Assembly: GCF_037975245.1 (NCBI RefSeq)
Contig: NC_092569.1
Location: 25,867,168 to 25,931,167 of the forward strand
Length of the DNA: 64,000 bases
Reading direction: 5' to 3'
DNA from: Apostichopus japonicus
Lineage: Eukaryota > Echinodermata > Holothuroidea > Aspidochirotida > Stichopodidae
A program made the translations under genes and the position numbers. Below, piece by piece: positions 3,009 to 63,698 of the stretch. The notes below the pieces were generated by a model. It made no database searches. It was not told the origin of the DNA and saw only the letters and a program-made list of their open reading frames with translations. Position 1 is the stretch's first letter. Each line of letters begins with the position of its first letter.

Positions 3009-3247
3009 AGTTCTTTTTAAAATGGCGTAGATTGTGTAATCATCCAACCAAACAACGATTGGATCATGATATACGTAATTTCAAGCAGTTTTTTTTATTT
3101 GATAAAACAAAATGGCCTTGGAATCACCAATGGATCTTTCAGAAATTTTTTTTTTTTTTACAGGTTGGGATGTTTGGCACCGCATGGAAAGACGGCATAG
3201 GATAATGACACATGGAATAAGGAGTAGACAAGTAGACAAGTGTAATT

Positions 3248-3925
3248 GGTATTACCCTTAATATATTTAGGTTAAGCAAAGATGAACATTATAAAACCTG
3301 CTGATATTGTTGGTATTAGCCTTAATAACTTTAGGTTAACCAAAAATGAACATGATAAAACGTGCTGGTGTTCTTGGTATTAGCCTTAATATCTTTAGGT
3401 TAAGCAAGGATGAACATGATAAAAGGTGATTGAGTTGTTGGTATTAACCTTAATATACTTAGGTTTACCAAGGCTTAATATTATAAAACGTGTTGGAGTT
3501 ATGATTATTAGCCTTAATTTCTTTAAGTTAATCAAGGATGAACATGAGAAAACGTGCTGGTGTTATTCGTATTGGCTTTAATATCTTTAGGTTAACCAAG
3601 AATGAACATGATCAAACGTGCTGGTGTTATTGGTATTAGCCTTAATATATGTAGGTTAACTAAAGATGAGCATGGTAAAGCGTGCTAGTGTTATTGGTAT
3701 AAGCCCTTAATATCTTAAGGTTAACCAAGGATGAACATGATAAAACGTGCTGGTGATATTTGAATTAGGCTTAATATATTTTGGTTAACCACGGATGAAC
3801 ATGATAAAACGTGCTGGAGTTATTGGTATTAGCCTTAACTTATTTAGGTTAACCAAGGATGAACATGACAAAACGTGCTGGTGTCATTGGTAATAGCTAT
3901 AATATCTTTAGGATAACCTCGGATG
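3248..3925. repeat. 64-bp tandem array, about 10.5 copies
   Basis: Units begin near GGTATTAGCC and run through TTAGGTTAACCAAGGATG and AAAACGTGCTGGTG. Unit starts are at 3248, 3312, 3376, 3440, about 3504, 3568, 3632 and 3696, an exact 64-bp period, and later units are shifted by 1 bp. Copies differ by scattered substitutions. The array is intergenic, between FREP-0 and FREP-1, with no consistent open frame and no unique spacers. Confidence 0.95.
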
Positions 3926-4179
3926 ACGCAAGACCCAAGTACCAATGAACAGTCCTCATGTTTGAAGCCAAGAAAAACGATATCATAGTTTACATAATTG
4001 CTCAATCTAGCAAATGCACCTTTTATTTATTTTTTTCACTATCGTTGAAAATGATGAAACGACTATTTTTCTATTTCAGCTAAGAGCAGTAAACGCCAAT
4101 GATAGGCGAAAGTAATAAAGCCATCTAAAAGCCAATTGTACAATACCATATTCTTTCTTCTAACATATTAAGTGAAGCA

Positions 4180-10546: not shown

Positions 10547-13500
10547 CTAGACAGGTCGTATCTTCATCTCAGTGTACAAGATACCAGTCGAGCCCGCAGG
10601 CAGATCATACCAGTATATTCCTGAAGGAGATGGACCAAGGTAGACACCATTGAGATTAGAGAATGCACAGTCATTGAACCACCAACCACCTTTGTAAATG
10701 TCAGCACAGTTACGATTACTTCCAGCATCATTGTCCCTATCGATGGTGCTGAAGTTATGATTCAGATGATATCGCAGCTCATCTCCTAAACCTAGAACGT
10801 TAGATGCAGATTTGAAGGGAATAAATAAAAAAAACACTCCAACATAAGACAAACAAATCGGGTCACCATAAATATCTAGATAAGAAACGAATACAAGATG
10901 ATGGACAATCGCATTAATTATATGCCCTTGTGTATCTCTAGAACTAACACTTTATCATATTAATATTACATACAACACTTATAATTTTTGAGTCACATCA
11001 TTTCATACACACGCCCTCCCCCCGTCCCCCCCCCCCCTTCTCCCTCTTATCACTTAATTGTAGAAGATATAGAGAGTATGCGCATACGTGTGAACTTTTT
11101 GCATGCATAAAGAACTAAGGGTCAATATATCATTGTACATCACAGGCTTTACATTCTCTGCATCCAGAAACAACAGGTTGTACAATGATTTCCCGAGGTA
11201 TGGACTACTTTTTAAGTTAAACGATGTATTAAGGTATCTAAAGCCAAAGAGAAACATGGTCGGTAATGAGCCATTCAACCAAGCTAGTGTTAAACAGTTT
11301 TGATGTTCCTGCATGTTACCAAATCTACAGCATACTAAACTCAACCTTAACGTTTCAGCTCTACCTATTAGAGTAGGCCACAAAAAGAACGAAAAACACT
11401 CATTGAGAGTAGACTTAAAATGAACGCCTATTATATAACCACATTTTAATCAGACATACGCCTCGATTAATTTCGGGTTTTTTTTCTGCCTGAAGAACAA
11501 GGTATCAAGATGAAGTCGACTAAAGTTGCCACTGCTCAATCATAGTTTATATAATTATGTGCTGAATACGTCCAAACTTATAAACAAACCTGCAGTTCCA
11601 CTGTAAGTTCCCAGTTCAGACAGTCTGTAATTGTCACTTTCATCATGAATGCGGAATAAGTCATACTTCGCATAGTGTAGAGCTCCATCTTTGTTCACCA
11701 TATCGATCCGCAGTTGATAGTCGTCTTGATTGGTGAGGTAATACAACTTATCATTACCCAACCAGAACTCATGGTCCAGCTCACCAAAGCCTTCTTTATA
11801 GCTCATCCAGTTACGATTGAAGTCAACGGAACCATCCGCACGACGTTGGAATATCTTTAGAAAGAGAATTAAATAATAATTATAATAACAATAAATTAAC
11901 GATAGTGATTGAAATTGTGGTGCTGAAACCAACTTATACAAATGTCGGAAATGTCACTCCATGCTTAATTTGGCTATAGCCGGTTATCTGCTTTTACCCT
12001 TCTCTCTGCGAAGAATAAACGTAAGTTTTCAATTGACTGAAAAATATATGTCGTTGAAATGACTACGATTGGTAATACTTTGTCTTCCAATGATCACTCC
12101 ACCCGAGTCGAACTGCTTTGAGTCAACTGAGGATGTCGAAATTTGGTGAGATCTGATTTTATTACTCAAACATATTTAGATTTGACACCAGCCCCCTCCC
12201 CCACCCTTCAAAAAAAAAGACGCTCAATGATATTTGTACAGAAAAACGTTTCTCGGTAAGGAAGTCACGATAAAAATGATATGAATTTTAATAAATATAG
12301 ATCCAGATTGGGAAGAAAAAAAATTGTTGAAAGGCGACCTCTCTCTACTGAATTGATTCAGACTGCTACGATGAGATATGTTGCCAAATAGATATCCAGG
12401 AAAGCCCATTCTACATGCATTCCGTCTAGAAATGAACATATACGCCTCCTAACAAACTATTGTTCTCGAAGGATTAATGTCTAGGTCACTTAAATAAAAC
12501 AATTTGTGAAATTTACCTTTAATATCTGAGCGGGAGAACGGATGAATGAACACGCACCAAGTGATGCATTCAATCTTGGGACTCTCTTCACCGTGACCAC
12601 ACGGGGAATTATAAGGAGCAGATTTAAAAATACATACCAGAATATGTCATGGCACTAAACTTACCGTCCATCCTCCTCCGTCAGTCATATTATACATATA
12701 CAACATACCGTCTATACTATAGGATGTCATATTAGACTTACCGTCCATCCTCCTCCGTCAGTCATATTATAGATATACACTATATCGTCTATACTATAGG
12801 ATGTCATACTAGACTTACCGTCCATTCTCCTCCGTCAGTCATATTATACATATACAATATATCGTCTATACTGTAGGATGTCATACTAGACTCACCGTCC
12901 ATCCTCCTCCTTCAGTCATATTATACATATACAATATATCGTATATACTATAGGATGTCATACTAGACTTACCGTCCATCCTCCTCCGTCAGTCATATTA
13001 CAGAAGACGGTAAAGGGCACTCCAGTCCAATAACTTGGTTTGATGATATATAGTCCGTCCACTGTGAAACCAGCGTCGAAGTAATCCCAGCAGTTTGTCA
13101 TATTTGTGGGCACACAAGTCTCTCCGTTTCCTGTGTATCCTTCATTACAATAACACTTGCGCACGTCGCCGCGTATCTCACAGTTTGCATTAGAGTTACA
13201 ACTGTAAGCTTCGTTCACGAGTATATGTCCATTTGAGCACTTGTAAATTCTTGTACAGTTGGCATTAACGAGAAGTGAACCGTGATTCTAAAAAAAAAAT
13301 AAGCATTGGGATGAGTACAAATTTATAATGCATATTCATACATACAAACATACATATTGCAGAGTACATTGCAGAACCTTTGTCGGTTGGCTTGATGACA
13401 ATTTCATCACGCTTCTGGAGTTCATTCATGGTCTCTCAGTTTTGAGATAATTGTTTAAATTGAAACCTTACCAACGCATCATAATTATTGTTAGGGATGA

Positions 13501-16159
13501 CACAGTCCGCACCCATATTGGTAGAAATAGACGGACCTTCCTGTGCTGTGGTAGTGATCTTTGTAGTGGAAGATTCTGTTGCTGTCTTGGCGCCTGGTTT
13601 AGTGGTCAATTCTGATGGAGTAGTTCGAGTTGCGACTTCAATCAGTTGATAATTAGTCATTGTTAATGTGCCTGAAACATAAGTACATCTCATTATGGTA
13701 TTCGGACTTGTTTTATGATATTCAATTCAAGCAGTTTGCATAGTTTTGTAGATGATTGGAAGTAAAAGTTTAATATCTTCATTAGAACTTGTAAAATTCA
13801 ATGATGTACTAAGGCTACATATTAGCACCATTAGAATGTTAAGAAGTTAAAATCCAGGTCCACACTTTTGTGTCATTTCCTTCCATTACAAGGTATAAAT
13901 AGATGTTTTCAGACATTTCCTCCGTGAAATTGGGTCAAAAAAGTGGACGATACGAGTAAAGCCTATGTAGGTTACATTCGTGTAAAACACACGCCGATAT
14001 GGGCGGATGCAGTGATTTTAATTAAATCGTTCGCGCCATTAGGGCAACAGAAAATAAATTTCTTTCTTTCGATTGCATCAGCCTTTATTCATTAAACACA
14101 CCTGGTCAGAGTGCATTTAGATCAAGAAACATTGAATCTGCTTAGGAAGTTTGTTTTTAGAAAATTCATCAGCAAACACGTATCGTAACTTTAATTTAAA
14201 GACACAAAGCAACAGTAAAATGCTATTTCTTCTATTTTCAAGAAGAAACAGAAACTTCAGAAAGCCCTGATCACCGGCACGTTTTGATGGTACGGAAACC
14301 CTACTTTATTTTATAACTAATTTATATTTAAAGTGTGTTCGATTTTCCATGTTGGAGGTTTCCCATTATGTCCAAAAAAATCAATTCTCCACACAAAGGG
14401 ATCGTGCTTGTTGTTTATCCAAGCAAATTACTATGTAAACTTTATTTCGAAACAAAATAATAAACTGGTAAATTTATGATCATATTTTTAGAAACTTTTT
14501 AGAAATTTACATTGACTTGCAATACATTTAACATTACCTTGTGTGGTCGAAGATGGTAAGTGTTTCTCTCTAGTGTTGGTGCATCGGAAGTAACCATAAA
14601 CTTCATCTGTAAACGAGCATTAATAAAACAATTTTTGTAAACAAATAATGACACACACACAAATCCAAATTTATGTTGAAATCCAGGGTAAATGGTCGAA
14701 GAGGTAATATTAATAAATATATATATGTATAGATATATACATACATATATATTTATTTACATATATATGGCCTTCATGTTAATGTCATTCCATTGTTGTA
14801 TGAACTCTGACCACTCGCCTGAAACATGTTCCTGTAAACTCTATGTACACAATAGGATATACTTGGATGATATTCTACGCCATTTGTAATTGATAACATG
14901 TCATTTAATGTCTTATAATTCGCATTGAGTGCTGTTTTGCATCTTAGTCACTGACCTAGTGGCTTGTCTATTGGAATACAGTGTCCTGTCACTTTAATTA
15001 ATTAATCTCATGAAGCTTTTCAAATGGTTTATTTCTTAAAAATTAGAAAGTGTTATGAAGAACAACATAGACTACTATATATGATTTCGAATGGTCTGCA
15101 CGACATCGACATTTTATTTCCTTTCACCCTCTTAAGCTTTTTCAATACGGGAACGTAAAAAAAACGGTAACGTTGATTTTGTTCTACAACAGTGTAGCTT
15201 AGCATCCCTGCATATAATGGTTACAATGCATAGTTTTGTTTATTAAATCAACTCACTAGATAACATGGGATTTACATGGCCACAGGATAGAAGACCAACC
15301 CGTTCTCTTGAAATAGACAAATGTGACGTATTCCCTGAAACCTAGACAAATTTTCTCACTATTTGATAAAAGAAATTAAATTATTAATGCTCTTTGGAGT
15401 CACATATTCATTTGCCTATTTCAGACTCACGATTTCACTCACTCACTATGAGTGTATACTGCTTCATGACATCCAACAAAATCCTTGTTCAAAATCTCCA
15501 CAGAGAATAGTTGTCTCCTACGCGACAGCATAGTAAATTACATGTTAAATGATAACAGATTTATGAACGTGTTTTCATGATGTTACATAATACACCGTGT
15601 CATAATAAATACATTATTTGGAAACATCGTCTTTCTTTCTTTAATGCTCCTCGGATTTTTTTTTTGTTATACTTTTAAACGCATAACCCAGTATATCATA
15701 ATTTTGAAAATTAAAGGGATAGATAATCAGTTTTGTTTAAATGAACAATGGTGACAATATTGATATCTTCCATTTAGCTCTTCGCAACCTTTTTAGATCA
15801 CGACTCAAAATAAAAATGAAATAAAAAGTCGACATTGGGCTGCAACCCATCGATCAGCCCGTGACGCCATTCCACTCCAGCCCCCCCCCTACCTCCACCA
15901 CCACCAAATTTATCACTACAATTCCACTGAAATTTATATGGTTGCCAATGTGATGGTTGACATTGTATGTTTCATTGCCACCCGTTTTTCGTTCTAATTG
16001 ATTATTGTCACTGAGGACATTTTGATCCTAAGCAGATTGCACTTTAATTTGTAGTTCTCGTGAATTTGTTAGATAAAATATAACCTTACCTGCCGTCAAA
16101 ATAACAGTTGTAAGATTAAACAGCAAAGTAGCGATGAACGTAGATTTCAGAATCTTCAT
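10547..16159 (-). CDS. FREP-1: secreted EGF + fibrinogen C-terminal domain protein (ficolin/FREP-like)
   Basis: Six exons join in phase: 16090-16159 (signal peptide), 14538-14606, 13472-13671 (Thr/Ser-rich linker), 12973-13287 (EGF and FReD start), 11590-11854, and 10547 to about 10791 (an alternative acceptor gives 10785). The product is about 387 aa. Residues 1-23 are a signal peptide. Residues 130-171 form an EGF-like module with six Cys and the ending CNEGYTGNGETC. The FReD runs from Cys179 to the C-terminus and contains MTDGGGWT, FQRRADGSVDF, EFWLGN, the calcium-site segment DRDND, the NCA...NDC disulfide pair and the terminal EMKIRP. All hallmark residues are present, so the domain looks functional. 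Secreted FReD proteins commonly bind acetylated or microbial glycans; that role is inferred here. The gene diverges from FREP-2 across about 7.7 kb. The intron after exon 4 holds four extra copies of the exon edge. Confidence 0.93.
12661..12972 (-). repeat. 77-bp tandem array derived from the exon 4 3' edge and splice donor of FREP-1
   Basis: The block TTACCGTCCATCCTCC (plus strand) starts at 12661, 12738, 12815, 12892 (as TCACC) and 12969, an exact 77-bp period. The copy at 12969 is the genuine boundary: the minus strand reads exon ...GGATGGACG then GTAAG. The four intronic copies repeat the codons for MTDGGGWT and the donor (GTAAG three times, GTGAG once). Between them lies about 45 bp of intron sequence. 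Use of any downstream donor would add a short tail ending at a TGA after VSLV, so these sites would not be neutral if used. Confidence 0.95.
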
Positions 16160-26800: not shown

Positions 26801-27871
26801 GACCACCAAACAACATTCAGGTAAGAAGCAACCTTAATTAATCTTAATAGAAAATCTTAAGTGAAGGTTTCAATAAACCTGATAGCAACCGAGCTCCACC
26901 AACTATATCAACGATTCATCTTGGAAACTTGCTATTTTATTTCTTATATAAATTGCCAGTGTCAGAAATGAATTCACTAACAAACATGAAAATAATTACT
27001 GATTTTGTTTATTCACAGTAAAATTTAAGAGAAACCATGTATTATAAATTGCAGATGAAAATAGTTTCTTCAATATTCAGCTATTTGTTGTACTTAAAGT
27101 TTATCCCCTATAATTTATCAATTTAAGAAATAAAACATCAAAACAATGTTTCAATGCTTTCAAAGCTTTAAAATCTGGTATAATTAATACAAATATGTTT
27201 TTCGCTAGAGAGAGAAATCCAAATGCAACATGAAAAGAAATTTTTGAAAAATGTTGGCAAGTTACTGGATTTTTAATAAGCTTTTATTTTGTGTTGAACA
27301 AAGCATCTACTCTTCTTGGGGGAAAAATCGTTAACTCAATTTTACAAAGTATCTTGACTACTTATGAACCATAAAACTCAGCTGCACGTATTGTAACTCA
27401 TTCTCATAAGCATTGTCATATCCACCCTGTCTTAAAAAACTTGCACTGGCTACCTGTAAAATATCGTATTATGTATAAAATTCTCCTTATTGTTTATAAA
27501 TCACTTAAAGGACATGGTCCAATGTATATTTCTGACTTATTACATATTTATGTCCCCTCTCGTAATCTAAGATCTAGCTCTCATGTTTTATTATCTGAAA
27601 TGAAGTCCAAACATTTTTGGGGGATAGGTCATTTATTGTTTCTGCCCCTCGCTTATGGAACCAACTTCCCTTAAAAATCAGAAAAACATCTACTCTCTCT
27701 AACTTTAAGAAGAGCATAAAATCCCACTTAATGAGAAAAGCTTTCATATGATCTTATACCATTAAGTTTTTCTTCTGTCATTGTTTTGTAGTTTTCTGTA
27801 TTATTTGTATCATTTCTCATTGTCATTTGCGCCATGAACATTCTTTGAGTGGTGTGTGCGCATTATAAGTC

Positions 27872-27909
<38 letters not shown>

Positions 27910-30900
27910 AATCTTATTTTTCTTTTTCAAGATTCTTCGTTTTTCTTCTACCAACAAACTGAACTTCCCAGAGATTGTAAGGACGTTCGAGACCAATGTG
28001 ATTCAAATAATTCCAGTGGTATTTATTTGATTAAACCTGAGACTTGTGCAGAACCATTCGAAGTACTTTGTGACAATTCTAAAGATGCTGGAGGTTGGAC
28101 GGTATGTAATAAATTATGATGCAAAGTAACTTGTTTTCTACTTTAACTTTATATTTGTGATGTATCTTAGCGTAGTATCGTCATATTCTTAAGTACAGTG
28201 TGGAATACTTTTATTCACCTCCGACACAAACCAACCACTGTCTGCTGTAAAGATAGTTATAAGCTGGTAGAATAACCATCCAAAAAGTTGAACAAAACTA
28301 ACTACTAGCCAAAGTATCTAACAAAACGGTCGTTTCGTAAAAGATTGTAATTAAGTTTGGTTTTCTCTTTTAGGTTGCTTGAAATACTAATCTTCTTTCG
28401 ATCAGTATTTCATTATATGAATTTTAAGAAGCCTGAGCACTAAAATGTGCAGGAAAGCTATATGATATGCAAATATATTTGAGAAGAATAAAAATGCTTG
28501 AAAATGAAAGACGTTATTATGAATTTAATTTACAGGTCATTCAACGTCGATTTGATAATGAATCGGTGGAGTTTAGTCGTGACTGGGAGAGCTACAAAAA
28601 GGGCTTCGGCTTCTTCTCTCACGAATTCTACCTTGGCAATGAGAAATTAACCTACTTGACAAATCAAAACAAATACGAACTGATGTTTGAGATAACGACG
28701 GTCAATGGTTCCACATTCAAAATGTCCTACATGAATTTCCGTGTCGGGGATGAGTTTAGCAACTACAAGTTAGTCAGTCTTGAAAGGAACTCCGGAACGA
28801 TATTCCAAGTCACTCGTAAGTACAACGTGTTATAGTATCATATTATCTTTCTGAGTAAGGATTGATTATCCTAGCTTAGGAAAATTAAATTTCACATATA
28901 TGAAACCAAAAAATTAGAACCATGGAATTTTTGGTGTATATATTTTAAATACATTTTTCATGCGTATCAGAAATATAATACTCAGGCAGACAACGACCAG
29001 GTAGGAAAGCCCGCAAGAGCTTATGGATTACAACATTCTCGTCGGGTGGCTTCCAATTCAAAATTGTAACTCAAATTTGGAATCTTTTCAATTTAGAAAG
29101 TCAATATCAGATGGTAAAACCGTAGATTTGTCTTGGATGAAACACGACCGGCCGGGGCTCGAGTCCCGAACCTCACGATTACTAAGCAGCATTGCCTTAA
29201 CATGGCACTGCCTTAATACACTCAGCCAGCACCGGTACATAAATATGCGACAGATTCGACTTTAAAGGGCTGTGAGAAGGGGGTATGATAGAACTTAGAC
29301 GCATTTGGTACCACTTTTTCTTGATACCATTTTTTTCATCTCAGTAACGGTCGCTTTGTTAATTATTTCATTCAATTGCCTACTTCCAGATTTCACTGAT
29401 TGCCAAGATGCGTTTACCTCTGGTTTTACTGATAATGGGATCTACAAGATAAAGCCGAACGACTGGTCCGGATCAGCTTTCAATGTTTATAGTAATATGA
29501 CAGATGGAGGAGGTTGGACTGTAAGTATTTAACAGTGACTGTTATACTTAAGTGGTCAAAAAACAGTCGTTGTTGCTGTTTTCAATTTTTATAGACTTTG
29601 GGATGATGCATACATTGTCCATTGTCAGTAAATTACTTCTCGTTTGTCATTTCACTTTTAACAATAATATGCCCTCTACTTATTTCAGATCTGTTAAACG
29701 GGAAATGTAGTTTCTTCGTCATCAGGTTTCAATTTCACAGCAGGGATATAACCTTTCTGGAAGTTTTAGCTAGAAACTATTATTTTGCCTTGTAAAGCTA
29801 GCTTTCAGTTAGTCAAAACAAATGTCAATGCGAGGAAGTTCATATAACTGCCCCCGCTTACATCGGTAGGTAGGTAGTAGTAGAAACGTCCACACAATAT
29901 TTCAACAAACAATACAACTGATTTTCATCAATACTATCACTGCAAAGATCTTATTCTTACTTGCAGCTTACTGTTCATTTTTCTTTCACAATGTTAAACC
30001 TGTTGTCACTCTTACTGTGTTAGACTGAGACCATCGTCAAAACTGTATCATACTCACTGCCATTATGAATACTTCTTGAACTTACCAGGTCTTCCAGCGA
30101 CGTGTTGATGGAAGTGTTGATTTCTATCGCGACTGGGACAGCTATAAAGAAGGCTTTGGAAATTTAAGCTCCGAATTTTGGCTTGGAAACGAGCAGTTGC
30201 ATTACTTAACGAAACAAAACAGATATGAAATTAGAATTGATGTGGTGAACAGAGATGGCGCTCCATACTATGCCAAGTTTGATAATTTCCGCACAAATGA
30301 TGAGACGGACAACTATCGCTTATCTCAACTTGGAACCTACAGCGGAACGGCTGGTGTGTATACATCTGATTATTATTTCGCTATCCTTTACAAATATATT
30401 TCTAGCCATTGATTTATATTAAAACAATAATTTAACATGTTTTCATGATGAGTTTCACGTTTGCTTGATTGTCCCGAAAAAGATAAAAGCATAATTTAAA
30501 AATTCAAACAATTGAAACAATTGAAAGTGAAAATAGCTTAAAACACCCGATTCACACAGAGGTTACAGTTACTACTGTTAATCTTATAGGTTAGTACCAA
30601 AGTAAAGAAATGGAACATGCTGATAAATCGGTAGTATGTGCAACCAGGATTACAGTTAGAACCGAAGAATTGCAGGCAACCTTCTAACCATACTTGATGC
30701 ATTCGTTGGGTTCACGCATATCCTCAATTCTTACTGTAATCCTAACAACACATGGTACCAATTTATCAGCACGGTCCAGTTTTCACTGTGGTATAATACT
30801 TTACATGTAGTAACTGTGTGTATTTGTTGCTTAAAATTATAATTTTAACACTGAATTGTTGTTAATACATAGTATGTATTATGTAAGTGGTATATCCTTT

Positions 30901-32330
30901 GAGGGATATTTCGTTTAATTAACAAGGCAATAGAAAACAAATTAATAGCAAACATCATCAACATGAAAAGGTATGTTACTTTACACCGAAACAACAAACC
31001 AATGCAACTAATCTACAACATAAACCTGACTAATTTCCAAATAATTCCTCATATCCTGTATTGTCATAAGCACCGCAGCAAATTGTGGAAATCTTTGTTT
31101 GCTTGAAATAAGTGGTTATAATTGCCTCAACCCACACTAGTTTTACTAAGTATATTCTTCATTAAAATCGAAAAGAATGATTAGAATGTACATTTATTCT
31201 TAAATGAAACTTTGGAAATTAGCATAGCATTTTTTAGCTTTACCGGCATACGAACCAGGGGCTCATGGTTACAGGAATTGAATCCCTTTCCAACCGAAGC
31301 TTTCTTAAGTTTGTTCATTTAAATTGTTTATAATTCTCCTGTAAGTTTCTGTTTTCGTGGACTTGTGATAACAAAATGGAATTATACAATCATTACGACA
31401 GTGGGCAAATCATACACATTTTCTTAAACCTATCAAGTTTTCACACGGTGATTCTGGTTAATATAAGATATTGGCCTCTTTTCTCGGGGTAATACTGAAT
31501 AAGTAGATTTGCTGAGAAGAAATCAATAACATGAAGTAGATTTCTACATTATTCTTTCAAAATTGATACCAAATATTTAGTTAAGAAAAGTTATACTTAC
31601 CTGAATATATCTTTGTTACACTTGAAATCATTTAAATTATTTCAATAGAACCATGAGCTAAATTGAAAAAGAGTATAACACTTGGAATAAACATAACAGT
31701 CTAGGGGAACCTTATAGAAGGTATTAACCTCTGTCCTCGTGGTAATAATATTCAATGTTTTAATAAGATTGATCAGAAGAAATAGAACATCAATTAGATG
31801 TCAATTGATTCCACTATAGCTAATAGAGATTACAAAAGTGCAATTACAAATTTGCAAAAGATCAAGCAATGTTTCTGTAATGTTATACGGCTCTCAACCC
31901 AAACATTTAAGATATGTTGGTGGATATTTGGAGATAGTTCAAAAGCTTAAAGGCAAACTGACTTGATATTTGACAATGTCTAGATTTTTTTTTTGATGGG
32001 AACCTAAACGGTCTCGTTCACATTTATCACTTATTGCTCTCAATTCTGTTTATTTTGACAGACGAGAGAAGCAACCCTGATGGCAAGTTTCTGCGTTATC
32101 ACCTCAACCACCAGTTCAGTACGTACGACCGTGACAACGATGCTTATAGCAGTAACTGTGCCGTCAGTTATCGCGGTGCCTGGTGGTACGACAATTGCTA
32201 TTATTCCAATTTCAATGGTGACTACCACGCAGCGTCTGGCAGTTATAGTAGTCTTTATATGTATTATATACCAGGATACGATTACAACATGAAATTCACG
32301 GAAATGAAAATTCGTCCATTCAGAGCTTAG
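23857..32330 (+). CDS. FREP-2: secreted protein with one truncated and one complete fibrinogen domain
   Basis: Seven exons join in phase: 23857-23931 (25-aa signal peptide), 26775-26820, 27932-28101, 28536-28815, 29390-29520, 30089-30353 and 32062-32330, giving 411 aa. Residues about 55-190 are the first two thirds of an FReD (CKDV...GGWT, then VIQRRFDNESVEF and EFYLGNEKLTYLTN). This copy lacks the exon for the calcium site and binding pocket. Residues 191-411 form a full-length FReD (DCQDA, MTDGGGWT, FQRRVDGSVDF, EFWLGN, DRDNDAYSSNCA, terminal EMKIRPF). In the second domain the Cys normally paired with Cys195 is Ser225. The extra pair of exons (170 + 280 bp) is phase 1 on both sides, so skipping it gives a standard single-FReD protein. 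There is no EGF module. Secretion and glycan recognition are inferred from the family. Confidence 0.9.
25447..25527. repeat. 25-bp tandem repeat, about 3 copies
   Basis: Units of ttaattcaataatttttgtt plus aggtc repeat in FREP-2 intron 1. Confidence 0.85.
27372..27907 (+). mobile_element. LINE 3' fragment (L2/CR1-like reverse transcriptase C-terminus) with (ATT)n tail
   Basis: The translation contains the hallmark C-terminal segment of L2/CR1-type ORF2: SAARIVTHSHKH, LHWLPVKYRI, YKSLKGHGP, then after a one-base frameshift in a G-run near 27619, APRLWNQLPLKIR and SHLMRKAF. A stop at about 27750 is followed by a short 3' UTR and an ATT microsatellite tail at about 27868-27907, as expected for this clade. 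It is 5'-truncated and dead. It lies in FREP-2 intron 2 and its tail ends only about 25 bp before the splice acceptor of exon 3. Confidence 0.85.
29141..29238 (-). mobile_element. tRNA-like SINE fragment
   Basis: On the minus strand an A-box-like TGGCTGAGTGTA (29217-29228) precedes a B-box-like GGGACTCGAGCCCC. This is the arrangement of a tRNA-derived polymerase III promoter, but spacing and pairing do not make a functional tRNA. It sits in FREP-2 intron 4, where the third exon of the truncated fibrinogen domain would be expected. Confidence 0.45.
30553..30820. mobile_element. Palindromic MITE or foldback element, copy 2
   Basis: The ends are CACACAG (30553) and CTGTGTG (ending 30820), with long imperfect arms. 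GTATGTGCAACCAGGATTAC on the left mirrors GTAATCCTAACAACACATGG on the right. It is the same family as 5957-6240. It lies in the last intron of FREP-2 and has no coding capacity. Confidence 0.75.
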
Positions 32331-44300: not shown

Positions 44301-47300
44301 GGTCGAACCGAACAGCATACCCTATACCAGGTAAGCCGACGTATAGATAGGACGGTAACCTTGCATCATGTACAGGGGCCTAACACAAGGAGACCCGCTG
44401 AGGTCGAAACCTAAGCACATAATGCAACAAAGAAATCTAGCAGATTATAACGAGACGAGGTCACCGTTTACATTGAGAACGAACATCACACATTAAACAG
44501 GAAACTAACATTTTCCCGTCTAATATTGGTGCCGCATGTGATATAAGGTAGCCTTACAGTACTACCAACCAATTTGCCCCATATTCAGTAGATTTGTTGT
44601 ATGTGATAACATCATTCAAAATCTGCTGATATATTTCGAAAAGCTCTTTTTGTTTCTAAGATATACACATTTGAAGTTTTGATAAATCTGAGAAACTCAT
44701 GCATTCAATATGTGCAAACTTTTACGTGGATTGCTGTGCTCATCAAAATGTCTTATATTAGCCCTTAATAAGTTTCCCTACTAACAAGCCCACATATATC
44801 ATTCGAATAATGTGATGTTCTTTTTTTCAAAGAAGACAAAATATTTTTAAAAATCACTTTAGGCCACAAACCCATGTGTTGAATTGTGTTCAGTGGCTTT
44901 GAAACCACGGTTGCAAAAACGGAATGAATAACATAACATCAAATGAGGCAGTCACTCCCATTACATCATCAATGTGCATAATGAGCTAATGACTATGCAT
45001 CAATAAAAATAGATTTAAGAAAGGACTTGTAAAATGGTCAACTTTTGATGGGAGTTGCAGCTACTTAAATCATTTCTAATATGCATTAGAATGATTAGGA
45101 CACTGTTGTATAAAGGTGTCCTTAGACCTATACTAGGCCGAACTATAGCATCGATCCGGGGCGGTGGGGGGTGGTATTAGCAGGGTAGACTAATTACTAG
45201 ATCAAACATAACAAAAGTCAGCATATGATACTTTACCTTATCCATTTTTCCTTCTTTTGGAAGGAGCTGAAAGGTTGGTCCATAGTTTGCCATGTGGAAG
45301 TCCAGATCGGTTTCATTGATATAGTCGTATAACCGGATTTGTTTGCCCCGTCGGAAGTTGATGTGACCATGATCGCTGACCATTATTACATTGAGAATAT
45401 CGGTTAAACCGTTTTCTTCTATTAAGTCGAATAACTTTTGAACATTGGAATCAATGATATCCAAAGAAGCCTTAACAGCAGGAGAATCGGTACCGAAAGT
45501 ATGCGATATTGTGTCCGGTTTATCGGCATAAAGAAGAACGAGATCAAAATCATCTTCGATTAACCATTCCATCGCCAAATCGATCCGATCAGAGAGAGGC
45601 ATGTTCCGCCACCACCAAGAGTCACTCGGTATGATCTTGTCCGGCACGATACCCTTGACCTCTTTCATACCGCCAGGGTACATGATGTTCCCGACAGACA
45701 AACCGTTAAGCTTAGCTGTTACCCATATCGGTTCGGCACCGGTATCCCACCATTCGGAAACATTGAGTGTTGCTGAGTAACTTGTCGTCTTGGCTCCGGT
45801 TTCTGGATCGTAGTAGAGGTTATGGACTACTCCGTGACATTCCGGATGCAGACCTTTTGAAATAGCAACATTAATATTCATTATATTTTGTTAAATATTT
45901 GCATATATGGTTTTAACATTTTAAGGGTACATTCAGTATGTTTCAGCGCGGTGGTTAATCTTACATGCTGAATTTTCATAGCAAGTAGCCTTTTTCAGTC
46001 ACGGCGCACTTAAACACACAGTGGACAATGTGTATAAGTCCTCACATGGGCACTATTGTCTAAGCCGGGGACAGGACGTATCAGTTCTCAACATTGGTAT
46101 ACTACCATCCATACAGGGAACAAAAAGTGCACGAACACGCCCGAGGCAATGATTGAACACCAGGGACAAACAGGGGACAGAAAATGTAAGCACCTATTCT
46201 TCAATGTTGTCTTCACCGGAAGGGGGGGGGGGTGCGTGTGTAAGCTTTCAAACGAGTGAACGCTATCCATACTAGGGTAGGAGTATAAATACTCACTATT
46301 GACACTGCTGTACATTATGTGGACATGAAATGTGTAAGTACTCGCCATTGGCGATGATCTGCATACAGAGGACAGAGGTTGTAAGTCCTCACAAGAGGCA
46401 ATGATGTCCAAACTAGGGACACAGAGACTGTGTAATTTACTCAGGTCAGACAAAGGTACAGAGAGTGAATGCATGCACTCACTTTTCGAAATGATGTATA
46501 TACGGGGTACCGCGAGGGGTCAGTACACTTACCTGTAGCGATGGTGTACATGCTGGGTGCAGAAAGTGACACAAATGCTCCATCCATCCATTCTGCTCGC
46601 ACTCCATTCATCTCGACGTTGTGAAAGGCAGGAAGCTCATATCCGAATTGATCATAGCGCAGTCCGTCAATTAGAAAGAGGAGCACCTTAGGCTGTTAGA
46701 AGAAACAAACATAAAACAAAACATTACAATCATGAAAAAAATATAGAATCAACTACATGTAGATAAGATATGCTATTTCATCAGAAAGCCTCATAAGGCA
46801 GTTATGAAGTAATCAATTTTCGGAGGTCCACAAATGACGCGAGTTTACGTATGAATTAGCGTTGCCTTTACCTCCTTATAAAACTTTGTGTGGCTAGGGA
46901 GACGATCATCAGGCTTCCCGCCACCTTCCAACACCCCCCCCCCCCCTCCCCCATCCTCCCGTTCATCCATTCCATTCGGTTTCGATCATAACTGATCAAG
47001 CTGCATGTACAAGCAAGCTCTCATATCAGGGGAAGTGGTTCACATGTTGAAGTTATGGACTGCCGGCCTGGAAGAGGGGTGTAAGAAAAGGGGAGTTGCA
47101 CTTTTTTTTGCAGAAACATTTGTATCAGTAAGGGTGCTTAAATGCAAAAAAAAGGTGCAATCGTTTCTAACTTGCAAAGAACATTTAACTTCACGACATT
47201 TCAGTATACCGGATAGACCTACAAATAGTTTCTTATTTTTAATGAACATGATCAAGCTTTTAAAGATCAATTTTATTTACGCAACAAATATATGATATTC

Positions 47301-54565: not shown

Positions 54566-63698
<9,133 letters not shown>

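Follow-up and report, generated by a model that had tools for sequence, protein, structure and literature searches.

A 77-bp tandem array at an exon edge presents five near-identical splice donors to a fibrinogen-domain gene

The window, which is the whole 64-kb stretch of DNA analysed, carries on its minus strand a gene for which four consecutive exons were identified. Background on expanded fibrinogen-related genes is given in sections of PMC5638244. In the order of transcription the exons are:

13472..13671, minus strand: likely preceding exon, rich in Thr and Ser and bordered by CAG and GTAAGG (sequence inspection)
12973..13287, minus strand: exon of 315 nt with the EGF domain and the start of the fibrinogen domain, ending in ...TGGACG (Pfam, joined frame)
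11590..11854, minus strand: next exon, 265 nt, fibrinogen domain, with a donor of its own, GTTTGT, that looks weak (Pfam, joined frame)
10548..10785, minus strand: last exon found, end of the fibrinogen domain, where the frame meets TAG at 10548 (Pfam, joined frame)

When the last three exons were joined, the resulting 818 nt formed an open reading frame holding the EGF and fibrinogen domains together. Across these exons Pfam returned EGF_3 at 29.9 bits and Fibrinogen_C at 24.4, 107.3 and 62.4 bits, and a comparison with PDB matched the 315-nt exon to fibrinogen-domain proteins (for example 7tz2, E 3e-06). Judged by its flanking CAG and GTAAGG, the stretch at 13671-13472 is a plausible preceding exon; no start codon or signal peptide was found with confidence for this gene.

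At least two more fibrinogen-domain genes or gene parts lie on the opposite strand at 27838-32330 (+), where Pfam detected Fibrinogen_C on four ORFs. Both share the position of the intron considered here, and their equivalent donors, located by boundary comparison and TRF, are:

28102..28107, plus strand: donor of the first of the two, a gene or gene part, without an array
29521..29526, plus strand: donor of the second, a fibrinogen-domain gene, without an array

In the minus-strand gene, this same boundary sits within a tandem array. TRF reported a single array here, with a period of 77, 4.5 copies, 93% matches and 0% indels at 12654-13000. Aligning the copies and searching for the repeated block resolved it into the following features:

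12654..13000, minus strand: 77-bp tandem array in which four 38-nt spacers separate five 39-nt exon-edge/donor blocks (TRF, aligned copies, block search)
12967..12972, minus strand: donor 1, that of the real exon, GTAAGT (aligned copies, joined frame)
12890..12895, minus strand: donor copy 2, GTGAGT (aligned copies)
12813..12818, minus strand: donor copy 3, GTAAGT (aligned copies)
12736..12741, minus strand: donor copy 4, GTAAGT (aligned copies)
12659..12664, minus strand: donor copy 5, GTAAGT (aligned copies)

The 39-nt block consists of the last 28 nt of the exon and the first 11 nt of the intron, repeats at an exact 77-bp period, and both opens and closes the array. The array therefore starts at 13000, 28 nt inside the exon, takes in the real donor at 12972, and ends at 12654, approximately 11 nt past the last donor. 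It is 347 bp long, and copies 1-4 differ by 4-6 of 77 bases. The intron following the last copy was considered as a further spacer homologue, but its alignment score was equalled in 12.8% of shuffled sequences and in 9.3% of random 38-mers (5000 of each). Because the intron beyond this point resembles the spacer no more than expected by chance, we placed the end of the array about 11 nt downstream of donor copy 5. Amplification of the exon edge and donor in the next intron at a 77-bp period, as proposed in the earlier note, is thus confirmed by TRF and the aligned copies; the array it had placed at 12661-12972 is real, with a true extent (12654-13000) that is slightly longer. Tandem exon duplication, in which the whole exon would be copied with both its splice sites, was rejected, as only 28 of the 315 exon nucleotides are repeated.

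Each of the five donors is preceded by ACG, and the G of GT lies at 12972, 12895, 12818, 12741 and 12664 on the minus strand. The series 12973, 12896 and so on, earlier given as donor coordinates, marks the last exon-side bases, and the G of each GT is one position lower. In donor-phased copies the four extra donors comprised three GTAAG and one GTGAG, as had been described. GTRAGT was present in 5/5 copies, bearing out the claim that the transcript offers five near-equivalent donors. Between 13287 and 11855, which covers this exon and its intron, the five array donors were the only occurrences of GTRAGT, a motif with a mean density of 0.56 per kb on the minus strand of the whole window. We assign donor 1 as the real donor because the joined frame is open, because it encodes the EGF_3 and Fibrinogen_C matches, and because the two plus-strand genes or gene parts have the same boundary.

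The array unit was then compared with the remainder of the window. The full 77-bp unit had no second match within the 64 kb, so that the check proposed earlier for the same units elsewhere, run on the window alone, found none. A partial match of 34 nt at 29493-29526 (85%, E 6e-06) corresponded to the exon edge of the plus-strand relative with its donor at 29521, and the only other match to the unit was a 12-nt chance match. Spacer matches outside the array, within the window, were limited to 11-12 nt. Counting arrays with a period of at least 20 (TRF; shorter periods were left out), the window contains seven, covering 4552 of 64000 bases (7.1%), and the presence of one on an exon edge is therefore unsurprising. 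The 77-bp array is real but probably an ordinary tandem repeat. A large 56-bp array of 49 copies (96% matches, TRF) occupies 56824-59570, and a 64-bp array of 10.7 copies (80% matches, TRF) occupies 3240-3926. Two minus-strand ORFs are candidates for known genes, 45177-46695 resembling an ectonucleotide pyrophosphatase and 61373-61786 aspartate carbamoyltransferase (CAD).

Are the donors specially conserved? Of the 77 columns of the aligned unit 11 were variable. Among donor columns this was true of 1 of 9 (P=0.62 for so few), and among exon columns of 2 of 28 (P=0.155); columns past +11 were compared in copies 1-4 alone, as copy 5 stops there. Changes numbered 2/112 on the exon side of copies 2-5 versus 8/196 on the intron side of copies 1-4 (Fisher P=0.34), a count that omits one more intron-side change, in copy 5. 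The conservation of all five donors, previously held to be notable, did not exceed expectation in this comparison (1/9 versus 11/77, P=0.62), five copies being a weak test. Selection on all five donors was accordingly set aside as unsupported by the column tests, which have little power with this number of copies. All 11 variable columns reflect a change in a single copy, consistent with copies that were made close together in time and have decayed independently.

Computed on the joined frame, use of donors 2 to 5 would extend the 315-nt exon to 392, 469, 546 and 623 nt. In each case the added sequence reads TGA at its fifth codon, which leaves 62, 139, 216 or 293 nt between the stop and the next junction. 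The prediction that downstream donors lead to a stop almost at once is thus upheld, as is the need for the first donor in making the full protein, since the 818-nt frame is open with donor 1 only. A stop at such a distance before a junction usually leads to transcript decay. Because the TGA sits 62-293 nt upstream of the next junction, decay of downstream-donor transcripts is likelier than a stable truncated or EGF-only protein.

Tandem arrays are reportedly, to go by the title of a 2007 paper, a source of alternative splicing. An exon-edge donor array belongs to an already known kind, the closest precedent in the portions of the literature consulted being the human ABCA7 intron-18 VNTR. According to the relevant sections of PMC5954066 (2018), the first bases of that VNTR are the GT of the exon-18 donor, and splicing from the donor one unit further on puts the transcript out of frame and leads to a stop. 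Frameshifting forms amounted to 14 +/- 6 and 2 +/- 1%; from the order of the text ('respectively') we take one-unit retention to be the 2 +/- 1% figure. Unit retention was unaffected by VNTR length, and stop-containing transcripts increased with cycloheximide (PMC5954066). Exon-19 skipping grew with VNTR length and accounted for 45 +/- 10% in BA10 brain tissue, where most samples held more of the alternative forms than of the canonical one (PMC5954066). Given the rise in exon-19 skipping and the predominance of alternative forms in ABCA7, as those sections report, such arrays need not be neutral. The present array resembles the ABCA7 VNTR, as described there, in including the real donor, in having units that carry a donor GT and in meeting a stop when the donor of the next unit is used. 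The ABCA7 unit is 25 bp, present in at least 12 copies, copy-number polymorphic and disease-linked. In contrast, the array described here has a 77-bp unit and five donors, also copies 28 nt of exon edge, and is known from one genomic sequence.

Two further systems are related, again as set out in parts of the respective papers. Human segmental-duplication genes were the subject of De Grassi and Ciccarelli (2009), who described internal tandem repeats where exon and intron meet and reported 27 intron modifications (PMC2812944). Their cases likewise involve a minisatellite on the border of exon and intron in a family of duplicated genes, but they concern novel introns with transcript support, whereas here the donors of an existing intron are multiplied, as read from genomic sequence alone (PMC2812944). 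In the model of intron gain by tandem genomic duplication, an exonic AGGT is copied to provide the donor and acceptor of a new intron (PMC3443670). Tandem duplication multiplies splice signals in both situations (PMC3443670). Intron gain via AGGT was rejected for this locus, where the boundary reads ACG/GTAAGT and AGGT is absent from the five copies.

We consider it highly probable that the array is a locus-specific 77-bp minisatellite that was born at the exon edge and is near neutral, with donor 1 dominant. DNA of the exon/intron boundary was copied locally, as the repeated block itself attests, and expanded into a 77-bp minisatellite that occupies the intron next to the real exon. Two routes may have led there: the block was first copied to a site 38 nt inside the intron, after which the pair of 77 bp multiplied, or a duplication of 77 bp came first and the last spacer was lost later. 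The transcript carries the five near-identical donors read from the DNA. Most transcripts probably use donor 1, which has the whole 315-nt exon behind it; downstream donors may be used at a low level, giving transcripts that would hit a stop at once and mostly be degraded. The array would then persist by drift and by minisatellite mutational behaviour, without selection on the spare donors. The exact period without indels supports the near-neutral reading, as do donor (P=0.62) and exon-edge (P=0.155) columns that vary as expected. Further support comes from exon-side and intron-side rates of change that do not differ (P=0.34), from the restriction of all 11 variable columns to one changed copy each, from a frame that is open with donor 1 alone and from the low unit retention in ABCA7. 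Work in cell extracts, where duplicated identical donors are used with a preference for the intron-proximal one, counts against dominance of donor 1. Predicted RNA structure was also considered. With 70-nt flanks donor 1 was the hardest to open, at 8.2 kcal/mol versus 5.9, 5.3, 2.3 and 4.5 (240 positions from 13200 to 12000 gave a background mean of 4.4, sd 2.4), and with 40-nt flanks it was the most open of the five. We gave these predictions no weight because the rank of donor 1 shifts with flank length.

An alternative that we regard as improbable is a regulatory brake, in which downstream donors are used in a regulated manner and lead to decay, so that array copy number sets the unproductive share and tunes protein output. 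Consistent with this, every downstream donor results in a stop 62-293 nt before the junction, and the consulted sections of PMC5954066 describe an intronic VNTR on a donor, that of ABCA7, that affects expression and splicing. However, retention of ABCA7 units was independent of VNTR length in the same sections (PMC5954066), which does not favour control by copy number. The donors here also showed no excess conservation, and neither of the two fibrinogen-domain genes or gene parts on the opposite strand has the array.

Slightly harder to sustain is the proposal that intron-proximal donors dominate and that the gene is largely unproductive and becoming a pseudogene. The donor copies match the real donor in strength, which together with the in vitro preference for intron-proximal donors would favour this outcome. 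The ABCA7 precedent, as far as the sections of PMC5954066 describe it, argues against it. So does the three-exon frame, which is intact despite ~4% change in the copies. At a divergence of 8/196 an unconstrained gene would show neither stop nor frameshift with P ~0.004 (~0.4%), a value that uses assumed rates (4.5% of substitutions nonsense and 0.12 indels per substitution).

Very unlikely is an assembly artefact, with copies that are absent from the genome. Tandem repeats are in general error-prone in assemblies, but this array is just 347 bp long and the 4-6 differences per 77 bases among copies 1-4 are unlike one copy assembled repeatedly. A last reading would treat parts of the array as 72-nt in-frame micro-exons with the AG of GTAAG as acceptor:

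12967-12896, 12890-12819, 12813-12742 and 12736-12665, minus strand: 72-nt segments that each start just behind GTAAG/GTGAG and run through the next exon-edge copy, open in 4/4

The frame is kept and open in 4/4 units, probably by chance, as ~27% of shuffles of the first segment are open too. Purines dominate the 20 nt ahead of that AG, which lack a pyrimidine tract, and the reading can be practically discounted.

If the array is a near-neutral minisatellite, as we favour, it is probably of little consequence for its gene. It represents a natural contest of five near-identical donors in which the full protein comes from the first alone, and could reveal what position and exon context contribute to the choice between equal donors. 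Were the regulatory brake true instead, an exon-edge minisatellite would constitute a length-tunable control of fibrinogen-domain gene output.
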